Shown piece by piece: positions 5,156 through 30,491 of a stretch of DNA of 32,701 bases. The position numbers were made by a program, and so were the translations under genes. This DNA comes from Candidatus Chaera renei. GTDB taxonomy: Bacteria; Patescibacteriota; Saccharimonadia; Saccharimonadales; Saccharimonadaceae. Below the pieces are notes generated by a model. The model saw nothing but the letters and a program-made list of their open reading frames with translations. It did not search any database and was not told the DNA's origin. Position 1 is the stretch's first letter. Each line of letters begins with the position of its first letter. The stretch spans positions 1 to 32,701 of the forward strand of contig SCKW01000003.1 in the NCBI GenBank assembly GCA_004100265.1. The letters run 5' to 3'.

Positions 5156-5199
5156 CCATTACAAAGCCATCAAGTTTAATCTTCATGCCCTTGTAATGG
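5156..5199 (-). terminator. hairpin starting at the CCA end of tRNA-Pro(CGG), followed by a short T tract
   Basis: Minus strand CCATTACAAGGGCATGAAGATTAAACTTGATGGCTTTGTAATGG then TTTT; 11-bp outer stem (one GU) plus CAU/AUG and AAG/CUU inner pairs separated by G.G mismatches. Confidence 0.6.
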
Positions 5200-7094: not shown

Positions 7095-8606
7095 TTATTT
7101 GGCGTATTCGATAGCCCGGGTTTCGCGGATAACGTTCACCTTAATGGTGCCCGGATATTGCATGGTGCTTTCTATTTTGGTGGCGATGTCGCGCGCCAGT
7201 TTAATGGCGGACAGATCGTCTATGCTCTGCGGCTTCACGATTACCCTGATTTCGCGGCCGGCGCTGATGGCGTAGGCTTTGTCGATGCCGTCAAAGCTAG
7301 TTGCCACGTTTTCTAGTTCGCGCATGCGTTCGGCGAAGTTTTCGGCGCTAATATTGCGGGCGCCGGGACGGGCCGCGGACAAGGCGTCGCATACCCGAAC
7401 CACCAGCGCTTCGGGCGTGGTGGCATCAATATCGTCGTGATGCGCCTCGATAGCGTGGGCAATATCTTCGCTAAGCCCGTACTTGCGTGCCAGCTCGCCG
7501 CCGATATGGTGATGCTTGCCCTCCATCCGGTGGGTGACCGCTTTGCCGATGTCGTGCAGCAGAGTGGCCATTTTGGTAACGCGGACGTTGGCGCCGATTT
7601 CTTCGGCGATCAGGCCGGCGATATGGGCCATCTCAACGCTGTGTTTCAGTACGTTTTGGCCGTAAGAGGTACGGAATTTCAGTTCGCCCAGCAGGCGCAA
7701 CAGCTCCGGCGGAACGCCCACCACGCCAACTTCTCGGGCGGCGTCCTCGCCCGCCCTGTCGATATCCTTGTCAATTTGCTTCTGGGCTTTTTCAACGACC
7801 TCTTCGATACGAGCGGGATGAATCCGGCCGTCTTTCATGAGCATCTCTAACGCCAGCCGGGCCACTTGTCGCCGCACCGGGTCAAAGCTTGACAGCACCA
7901 CCATGCCCGGAGTGTCGTCTACCAAAATGTCCACGCCGGTGGCACGCTGCAGCGCTTGAATGTTACGGCCCTCTTTACCGATAATCCGGCCTTTCATTTC
8001 TTCGTCTTCAAGCTTCAGAGCGGTTACCGTGCGCTCGGCCGTTACTTCGCTGGCCATCCGCTCCATGGCGCCAACCAGCACGGTTTGGGCGCGTTCCTCT
8101 GCCTCGGCCGCCGTTTCGCTTTGCAGTTTAGCCACTAGGCCGGCCAAGTCTTCTTTGATGTCGCGCTCGGTCATGGCCATTAACTTTTCGCCGGCCTCTT
8201 TTTTGGTTAGCTTAGCGATTTTTTCGAGCTTCTCTTGCTGGCGGGAGCGGATCTCGCGCAGTTCGTCTTTAAGGCTTTCAACCTCTTCTTCCGATTGCCG
8301 CAGCTTTTCGCTGCGCCGGTCGAGTTCCTCGAGCTTGCCATCAAGATGCGTCTCGCGGTCGGCCAGGCGGTTTTCGGCCTTGGTCAGCTCGTCGCGCCGG
8401 CGCTGCTCTTCTTTTTTGGCGTCCTCGGCGATTTTAAGGGCCTTGTCCTTGGCCTCCAGCTCGATTTGCTTAGCTTTGTTTTTGGCCTCTTGGGTCAGTT
8501 TTTCGGCTTTTTGGGCGCTCGACTCCCCCCGTCGGCGCTGATAGACATGGTGCGAAGCTGCCCCAAAAAGCAACCCGAGCACCGCGGCGATGATTGCGCT
8601 CAGCAT
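7095..8606 (-). CDS. rny: Ribonuclease Y
   Basis: N-terminal TM, long coiled coil, KH domain (MKGRIIGKEGRNIQALQRATGVDILVDDTP) and HD domain (LLHDIGKAVTHRMEGKHHHIGGELA). Confidence 0.97.
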   Translation of the reverse strand: MLSAIIAAVLGLLFGAASHHVYQRRRGESSAQKAEKLTQEAKNKAKQIELEAKDKALKIAEDAKKEEQRRRDELTKAENRLADRETHLDGKLEELDRRSEKLRQSEEEVESLKDELREIRSRQQEKLEKIAKLTKKEAGEKLMAMTERDIKEDLAGLVAKLQSETAAEAEERAQTVLVGAMERMASEVTAERTVTALKLEDEEMKGRIIGKEGRNIQALQRATGVDILVDDTPGMVVLSSFDPVRRQVARLALEMLMKDGRIHPARIEEVVEKAQKQIDKDIDRAGEDAAREVGVVGVPPELLRLLGELKFRTSYGQNVLKHSVEMAHIAGLIAEEIGANVRVTKMATLLHDIGKAVTHRMEGKHHHIGGELARKYGLSEDIAHAIEAHHDDIDATTPEALVVRVCDALSAARPGARNISAENFAERMRELENVATSFDGIDKAYAISAGREIRVIVKPQSIDDLSAIKLARDIATKIESTMQYPGTIKVNVIRETRAIEYAK

Positions 8607-28736: not shown

Positions 28737-30185
28737 CTAGTCGGTAACGCTGGAAGATAAAAAGTCATAGCGCGTGCGCCGCCAAAGCAACCAGCCGAGC
28801 AGACCGATCACCGCATATGACAGAATCATCACCCCGGTATGCCCGGCGGCAACTTCAATGACGGCGCCGGGCAAAGACGAGATTTTATCCGCCAGATTAA
28901 CCATGTACCCGGTGATTAAGTTAGACGGCAGACCGGCGTACCCGGCCAGGACGGGCACGACCATACCCGCCAGGCCGGCGGCAAAAGTCGCCAACATGGC
29001 CAGCGGCACCAACGGTACAACGGCCAAATTGGCCGCCAGCGAATAAACCGACACGCTACCGAAAACCCAAATCAGCAGCGGCCAGGTGAGCAGTTGCGCC
29101 GAGAACGTCTCGATCAACACCTGCGCCAACAGCGGCGGCGTTTTGGGGCCGAAAATCCGCCAGCTGATCATCGGGGCCAGCAGCATGACGCCGCCGAACG
29201 CCAAAAACGATAGGTACCACCCCAGGTCGGACCAAACGTAAAGCGGATTAATCAGCCCGGTAACCAAAGCGGTAAATAATAGCAACACCGCCGGGTGTGC
29301 CCGGCGGCCGTAGTACCAGGCCAGCACCGCCAAAGAGCTGACCAGGGCGGCCCGGCTCATCGACGGGCTGAAGCCGGTTACCAGCACAAAGCCGGCCATC
29401 AACAAAAACGAGCCAGCGGCCGCCTGAAACTTGGAATGGCCGGCCAGCAGGCGGCGGGCTGCCCGCACCAGAATCGTCAGATTATACCCCGATGCCACCA
29501 CGATATGGGTAAGGCCGATACGCTTCAGATCTTCATCCAGTTGCTTAGGCAGAGCGCTGCGCTGGCCAAGCAAAAAACCCAGACCCAGGCTGGCCTCGGG
29601 CTCGGGTACGGCGGTGCGCACTCCGGCGGCAAAGGTGTCGCGCAGCCGCAGCGCCAGGTCATTGCCCGGCACGTAAGTCTCTACCGTGGCAAAGCTTAGC
29701 CCGGCCTGGTAGTTGCCAAAGCCCGCTTTCAGCTTGCCTTTTAAGACAACCTGATCGCCGCGCCTGAAGGAGCGCGGATCAAAAGTGCTGGCCCGAACCT
29801 GCCCGGGCAGACGCCGCCCGTCAACCGTAATATCTTTTACTTTAAACTGTTTTTCGCCGCGCTTGCCGTAGATGGGATCGTTGGCAATGGTACCGCTCAG
29901 GCTGACCTTTTGCCCGATCAGTCCGTCGAGGCCGCTAAGCTGAAACCAGGTGCTACTGCCCTGCCAGGCGCCCGCCATTAGACCGGCGGCCACGGCTAGC
30001 AACAGAGCCGCTCTTGAGCGGCGCCAACAGGCCGCCAGCAACAACATTGCCGCCGCTACCAGCCACGCCCGTCCGTAAAGCCACAACCCCGCGGGCACCA
30101 GAGCCAAACCGGCCAGGCCGCCCACGCTGAAACCGCCCACCACCCACGTCCGGTTGATCCGGTAAGGGGCCAACAGCCAGCGCAT
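28737..30185 (-). CDS. comEC: ComEC/Rec2-family DNA uptake channel protein (no metallo-beta-lactamase domain)
   Basis: GLTHIVVASGYNLTILV, GFSPSMSRAALVSSLAVLAWYYGRR and many TMs; ends at 482 aa. Confidence 0.9.
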   Translation of the reverse strand: MRWLLAPYRINRTWVVGGFSVGGLAGLALVPAGLWLYGRAWLVAAAMLLLAACWRRSRAALLLAVAAGLMAGAWQGSSTWFQLSGLDGLIGQKVSLSGTIANDPIYGKRGEKQFKVKDITVDGRRLPGQVRASTFDPRSFRRGDQVVLKGKLKAGFGNYQAGLSFATVETYVPGNDLALRLRDTFAAGVRTAVPEPEASLGLGFLLGQRSALPKQLDEDLKRIGLTHIVVASGYNLTILVRAARRLLAGHSKFQAAAGSFLLMAGFVLVTGFSPSMSRAALVSSLAVLAWYYGRRAHPAVLLLFTALVTGLINPLYVWSDLGWYLSFLAFGGVMLLAPMISWRIFGPKTPPLLAQVLIETFSAQLLTWPLLIWVFGSVSVYSLAANLAVVPLVPLAMLATFAAGLAGMVVPVLAGYAGLPSNLITGYMVNLADKISSLPGAVIEVAAGHTGVMILSYAVIGLLGWLLWRRTRYDFLSSSVTD

Positions 30186-30246
30186 AACTTAGCGGTAAGT
30201 ATAACAAAAAAAGCGCGAAGCGGCCGAACTGGCTATGGGTGTTTGA

Positions 30247-30328
30247 AGGGTCCAGTGGGACGGCGCACTTCTTGCGCTCGTTCTCGAAGCAAGTTTCTGC
30301 GAGCGAGCTTGAAGACTGAACCCACGAC
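30247..30328 (-). pseudogene. tRNA-Lys T-arm/acceptor remnant interrupted by a 55-nt insert
   Basis: agggtccagtgggac (30247-30261) and tgaacccacgac (30317-30328) are identical to 30418-30432 and 30434-30445 in the tRNA-Lys gene. Confidence 0.6.
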
Positions 30329-30357
30329 TATTGTCAGCTAAAGCTGCCAAGTCGTGG
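30322..30357. other. CCACGACT...AGTCGTGG inverted repeat
   Basis: ccacgactattgtcagctaaagctgccaagtcgtgg; 8-bp outer and 4-bp inner stems. Confidence 0.6.
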
Positions 30358-30376
30358 AACCGAGCCACCAAAACAA

Positions 30377-30417
30377 CCACGCAAAAAGCCCGACACAAGG
30401 CCGGACTCTTTGCGTGG
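30377..30417 (-). terminator. 16-bp hairpin beginning at the CCA of tRNA-Lys
   Basis: Minus strand CCACGCAAAGAGTCCG-GCCTTGTGT-CGGGCTTTTTGCGTGG, continuous 16-bp RNA stem with two GU pairs, followed by TTGTTTTGG. Confidence 0.7.
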
Positions 30418-30491
30418 AGGGTCCAGTGGGACTTGAACCCACGACACCCTGCTTAAAAGGCAGGTGCTCTAACCGGCTGAGCTATGGACCC
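30415..30491 (-). tRNA. tRNA-Lys (anticodon TTT), CCA encoded
   Basis: Reverse complement GGGTCCATAGCTCAGCCGGTTAGAGCACCTGCCTTTTAAGCAGGGTGTCGTGGGTTCAAGTCCCACTGGACCCTCCA. Confidence 0.97.

Follow-up and report, generated by a model that had tools for sequence, protein, structure and literature searches.

The single-gene tRNA-Lys(UUU) of Candidatus Chaera renei is followed immediately by a long hairpin which, judging from its stem, U-tract and position, is best read as a predicted intrinsic terminator, and we consider it reasonably probable that the locus as a whole joins this terminator to a composite formed when a palindromic element inserted with partial duplication of the tRNA. In the 32,701-nucleotide stretch of DNA analysed here (the window), the intact tRNA gene, with its encoded CCA and discriminator base U73, lies on the minus strand at positions 30415–30491 (ARAGORN; Rfam RF00005, 73.8 bits), and the hairpin lies on the same strand at 30377–30417, overlapping the CCA at 30415–30417 and ending in a TGG at 30377–30379. 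The next downstream gene on this strand is ComEC-like (28737–30185; TIGR00360, 63 bits), and both the terminator and a split copy of tRNA-Lys are found between it and the tRNA.

An earlier note on this DNA described a hairpin of 16 bp with two GU pairs and a 9-nt loop, starting at the encoded CCA and regenerating a TGG at its far end. The start, with the outermost pair at C74, the TGG and the outer part of the stem were all recovered, but the stem also takes in two further pairs on its inner side (G.U and C-G), and the minus-strand pairing of CCACGCAAAGAGUCCGGC with GUCGGGCUUUUUGCGUGG in fact extends over 18 contiguous bp with three G.U pairs and a 5-nt loop. The hairpin has an energy of -30.1 kcal/mol compared with -10.9 ± 2.6 for shuffled sequences (z = -7.4, with none of 200 shuffles as good), and retains -23.1 kcal/mol when the CCA/UGG pairs are removed. 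Its core, GUCCGGC/GUCGGGC followed by UUUUU, provides the stable GC-rich stem and U-tract of an intrinsic terminator, and it is by far the longest of the terminator-like sites in the final 12.7 kb of the window (25 compared with 17.9 expected). The GC core, the U-tract and the position just after the tRNA are shared with the intrinsic (Rho-independent) terminators of bacterial tRNAs; unlike those usually seen, the stem here extends into or beside the CCA, and the A- and U-tracts are paired, with the UUUUU lying within the 3' arm.

The hairpin is not a product of chance and its design is common to other tRNAs, yet these form a minority within this genome. The parallel drawn earlier with tRNA-Pro(CGG) holds up well, with a similar CCA-anchored hairpin (CCAUUACAAGG..GGCUUUGUAAUGG, z = -7.9) at 5156–5199 of the minus strand. 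Among the 39 tRNAs found in the genome (from stretches covering 604 of 625 kb), CCA/UGG-paired trailers were also predicted for Glu(UUC) and Ser(GGA), with that of Phe falling one base short and no such hairpin predicted for the Pro(UGG) trailer. Only seven of the 36 tRNAs scored had a strong hairpin, and the other 29 indicate that it is no general requirement for maturation. We also note that five tRNAs of this genome (Arg(GCG), Ser(CGA), Gln(UUG), Lys(CUU) and Ser(GCU); loci L064, L071 and L045) have palindromes in common immediately 3' of the CCA, TCCTCCGxCGC..GCTATGGAGGA and TTCTACTTCGCC..GGCTTCGTAGAA, with four of the five copies of the former less than 100 nt from a tRNA.

The comparison with relatives supports a terminator positioned at the tRNA end well. 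Strong hairpins close to the CCA were found at 154 of 269 CCA-encoding tRNAs of the Saccharimonadales, a set enriched for loci carrying split-copy elements, compared with 24 of 1345 shuffled trailers (1.8%). The earlier note had made its case depend on compensatory variation, and this was found: relatives use other paired sequences (CCAAATAGAATGCC..TTTTCTATTTGG, CCAAGTAAAATACCGATCC..GGTCGGTGTTTTACTTGG and CCACGAAAAAGGCCAATCC..GGTTGGCTTTTTTCGTGG), and this retention of pairing despite sequence change indicates that the stem is maintained. Its expectation that the stem would be anchored at the CCA in orthologous loci was borne out only approximately. The outermost pair lies within two positions of C74 in 116 of the 154 strong hairpins and exactly at C74 in 23, and the counts from -2 to +2 (23, 24, 23, 22 and 24) have no peak at C74, and we reject an exact CCA anchor as a fixed rule. 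Of 30 loci collected by their tRNA-Lys alone, 19 have a strong hairpin, 15 of these within 2 nt of C74, and 11 lack one; thus a shared CCA...UGG terminator design exists in the order, but with an approximate anchor and not at every tRNA-Lys. In other classes of the phylum strong hairpins were seen for 13 of 33 tRNAs, six of them within 2 nt of C74. The tRNA-Lys discriminator is U73 (..CCCTCCA) across the order (window 30415–30491, loci L008–L037), and mostly A73 in other classes.

The enzymes available for tRNA 3' maturation give this arrangement its interest, as the hairpin alone would amount to a well-placed terminator. In the genome assembly, which is 94% complete, we found no match for RNase Z (14/14 controls were detected), and none for the CCA-adding enzyme family or the RNB exonuclease domain (bacterial controls were detected for both); the RNase R model matched S1-like stretches only. 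The CCA-adding family was also absent from 37 of 41 relatives. PNPase is present, as is RNase Y (window 7095–8606), and CCA is encoded in all 39 tRNAs found. Given the failure to detect RNase Z, the CCA-adding enzyme or any RNB exonuclease, the encoded CCA ends look irreplaceable, and the tRNA 3' end must presumably be made exactly since the usual repair enzyme is not to hand. How an encoded CCA end is made precisely without these enzymes is a testable question for a large uncultured group. In E. coli, RNase E is reportedly responsible for the one-step 3' maturation of proline tRNAs, and the RNase R of Mycoplasma, which has a reduced genome, is said to act in one-step tRNA 3' maturation. Both resemble the present case in having an encoded CCA from which a trailer is removed, and in Mycoplasma the genome is likewise reduced, but no RNB-domain exonuclease was found here.

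The presence, strength and CCA-proximal position of the tRNA-Lys hairpin and its covariation in relatives are observations, and the reading we prefer builds on these. The intrinsic terminator of a single-gene tRNA-Lys(UUU) transcript would sit directly on the tRNA 3' end, with the A-rich 5' arm starting in or beside the CCA and the U-tract placed inside an extended 3' arm. Intrinsic termination is expected 7–9 nt into the U-tract, and RNA polymerase would probably be released within UUUUUGCG. An endonuclease (RNase Y being the candidate) and/or a phosphorolytic exonuclease (PNPase) could then expose the encoded CCA, which the cell apparently cannot rebuild. If release comes ahead of the UGG, the CCA need not pair in most terminated transcripts, and pairing of the CCA within terminated tRNA-Lys RNA is doubtful.

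This bears on two views of the CCA/UGG pairing itself. There is about an even chance that the hairpin is a plain terminator, the CCA pairing being a by-product of a long A-tract/U-tract stem beside the tRNA end and the CCA...UGG controlling nothing. The even spread of the outer pair around C74, the expectation that termination would precede the UGG, and full CCA/TGG pairing in 33 of the 74 strong hairpins with no second copy detected all fit such a by-product; it accounts less easily for a very consistent closeness to the CCA, and for the higher frequency of C74 pairing ahead of a split copy (58/80, compared with 38/74 where none was detected; Fisher p 0.008). Full CCA/TGG pairing was found in 48 of the 80 hairpins with a second copy, and its frequency in the others means that derivation of the TGG wholly from an inverted tRNA copy was set aside as a partial explanation only. 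The pairing might instead guard or gate 3' maturation, as the earlier note had suggested, keeping exonucleases away from a CCA that could not be rebuilt until an endonuclease has cut. The enzyme complement makes this plausible, PNPase and RNase Y being present and neither RNase Z nor a CCA-adding enzyme or RNB exonuclease having been detected, but with an inexact anchor and most tRNAs of the genome managing without a strong hairpin we regard it as unlikely.

The second part of the composite, overlooked in the earlier note, is the split copy of tRNA-Lys, which begins past the hairpin and continues on the minus strand in the order inverted T-arm piece, direct T-stem piece, structured insert and displaced 3' end of the tRNA. 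The degenerate inverted piece (GGCTCGGTTCCACGAC, 30351–30366) pairs in the predicted fold with 30317–30328, where a direct copy of the 5' half of the tRNA-Lys T-stem is found (GTCGTGGGTTCA; repeat D4, 12/12 identical). This is followed at 30262–30316 by a 55-nt insert in what would be the T-loop of the second copy, which was assigned to type C by alignment with the inserts of other genomes, and then by tRNA-Lys nt 59–76 (GTCCCACTGGACCCTTCA, 30244–30261; repeat D3, 17/18, with identity from nt 59), in which the CCA is mutated to TCA. Inverted pieces matching the local tRNA also occur at other loci. At the gathering threshold of Rfam, tRNA was the sole RNA family matched in the window.

Equivalent arrangements recur across the order: an intact tRNA is accompanied by an incomplete copy of itself that bears a structured insert, usually in the T-loop. 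Within this genome the plan is seen for Lys, Glu(UUC), Ser(CGA), Gln(UUG) and Ala(UGC), with copies of 21–22 identical nt placed 113–168 nt downstream of the tRNA for Ser(CGA), Gln(UUG) and Glu(UUC), and a mirror form upstream of the tRNA for Ala(UGC). In relatives the composite was found with Lys, Ser, Gln, Asp, His, Arg, Leu, Val, Pro, Gly, Met, Ile, Phe and other tRNAs. Among 73 second copies the first identical base was nt 56 for type A inserts (12/12), 55–56 for type B (30/33) and 59 for type C (17/28), although a simple pattern served to separate B from C, and some of the copies listed under C with a start at 55–56 are B. Identity most often ended at A76 (29 exactly and 14 one base further); at L196 and L226 the copy includes the whole terminator, which suggests recent duplication. 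In 47 type B copies located by their insert, the T-loop and T-stem were 87–100% identical to the tRNA and the CCA 60–66%, a profile which is partly biased in that the T-loop match served to find the copies, and the acceptor part was decayed in 13 of them. Copies of the 5' type keep nt 1 to about 23–25, 37 or 50–53 before the insert, often with zero mismatches. One copy carries an insert in each of two loops (L279), two loci have two stacked units of which the distal half matches the tRNA worse (L229 and L284), and another has two nearly identical 5' units in tandem (L344). Split tRNA-Lys copies with different inserts are also present in other classes of the phylum (L352, L353, L361, L362, L364 and L365).

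The inserts fall into three families, A, B and C. That of type B is 88 nt long with three hairpins and strong covariation, having at least two Watson-Crick types at 22 of 33 pairs in 74 sequences and one G.U pair retained in 70 of these. The excess of GU over AC cells (123 to 19, or 29 to 19 when two GU-rich pairs are left out) weakly favours an RNA with the sense of the tRNA strand. Type C aligns across seven tRNA species of other genomes (Asp, Lys, Pro, Met, Val, Arg and Phe), with compensatory changes at nine of ten consensus pairs in 11 sequences. Among 198 genomes of the order, pattern matches were obtained in 58 for type B and 11 for type A, with none for reversed controls. The scan of genome contigs for type B gave at least 85 motif positions in the fetched loci, at least 61 of them within 350 nt of a tRNA gene, and among the matches listed all 61 near tRNA genes were on the tRNA strand. 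The full TGAG-type start was confined, among the matches listed, to Saccharibacteria or unnamed MAGs except for some oddly labelled genomes, which may be misbinned. A group I intron, T-box or other known Rfam RNA or ribozyme was rejected, with searches of seven insert-bearing loci at E<=1 returning only the tRNA and spurious matches below threshold. Phage origin was similarly discarded, since types A and B were each met on just a single viral contig; that for type B has a coding-like flank and no tRNA in the fetched stretch.

Split copies recur as a feature of these genomes, their insert being RNA-like, covarying and unmatched in Rfam. Under the insertion reading, the tRNA-Lys locus would be the left part of a recurrent composite made up of an intact tRNA, terminator, inverted T-arm piece, structured insert and displaced 3' half. 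Most likely, a small palindromic element, itself non-autonomous, would have entered a tRNA gene loop, accompanied by a local partial duplication that leaves one tRNA intact and so rescues a single-copy tRNA; units may stack, with the older displaced half decaying. The inserts form a short repeat family with inverted-repeat structure, as palindromic elements and MITEs do, but their ends follow the local tRNA and the duplication varies in length, in place of fixed terminal inverted repeats and a fixed-length target duplication. By description they can be likened to the Rickettsia palindromic elements, which are 105–146 bp long and also occur in tmRNA and RNase P RNA genes (PMC2229807), both being short palindromic inserts in essential genes that include RNA genes. 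Here, though, the target is a second tRNA copy, on the tRNA strand in all of the listed matches near a tRNA gene, and comes with a partial duplication and inverted T-arm piece. The same-strand orientation and the match of the inverted piece to the local tRNA would be unexpected of a simple DNA transposon, and the variable duplications and 3' copies that mostly stop at the CCA also count against insertion. The account thus fails to explain why the orientation is strict, why the inverted piece matches the tRNA, and why no enzyme was found.

Less probably, the Saccharimonadales would carry a hitherto undescribed class of tRNA genes, half-duplicated and decorated in their loops with small structured inserts strictly in tRNA sense, whose RNA- or structure-guided spread would copy half of whichever tRNA is entered, or which may be kept as tRNA-based regulators or decoys where CCA ends cannot be repaired. 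Selection for functional RNAs built on a tRNA half is by itself an improbable explanation of the split copies: the covariation and conserved G.U pair of insert B, the tRNA-sense orientation throughout (61/61 among the matches listed) and better retention of the T-arm than of the acceptor and CCA would all suit it, but the distribution is patchy (58/198 genomes for the type B pattern), the acceptor part decays in 13/47 and the window copy has a mutated CCA. Site-specific integration, in which a recombinase crosses over in tRNA loops and the element brings the replacement half to leave attachment scars, seems rather less probable again. A sharp T-loop boundary, restored tRNA, displaced 3' half and stacked insertions recall the integrative elements attached to tRNAs by tyrosine recombinases, and a direct repeat of the tRNA 3' end does flank the element; against this, one insert family is found at many tRNA species, each with its own matching half which a fixed half could not supply, and no recombinase gene was found within these elements of about 115–190 nt or nearby. 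Template switching at palindromes during replication, without any mobile element, might have produced the direct-inverted-direct order of tRNA pieces with the terminator palindrome at one turn, but we give such fold-back errors little credence as they would not explain a conserved, covarying insert common to unrelated tRNAs and families of the order. A retroviral-style primer copy (18 nt, nt 59–76) would fit many type C copies, and was rejected as it does not fit types A and B or the 5' type. An explanation of how split copies form would bring to light a novel tRNA-directed type of mobile element or else a novel RNA based on tRNA.

In the loci examined we saw neither a transposase nor a recombinase or autonomous element, with Pfam applied to one cargo only. 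This is the one larger insert, which measures about 2.5 kb, contains a gene for an S24 peptidase and is located between two stacked split-tRNA units after tRNA-Lys(CUU) (L215, 3069–5690); in it the Pfam search found the peptidase, three unmatched ORFs and no recombinase. Among open-licence papers we found nothing relevant on tRNA repeats or inserts in Saccharibacteria. Type B-like sequence was also seen at a distance from tRNAs after CATTGCGAGGG (L274 and L231), where it resembles what we take to be a repeat motif of other bacterial genomes. In two species of another class (L361 and L362), an upstream partial tRNA-Lys copy has a common D-loop insert, which has diverged while the first 20 nt of the copy are unchanged.
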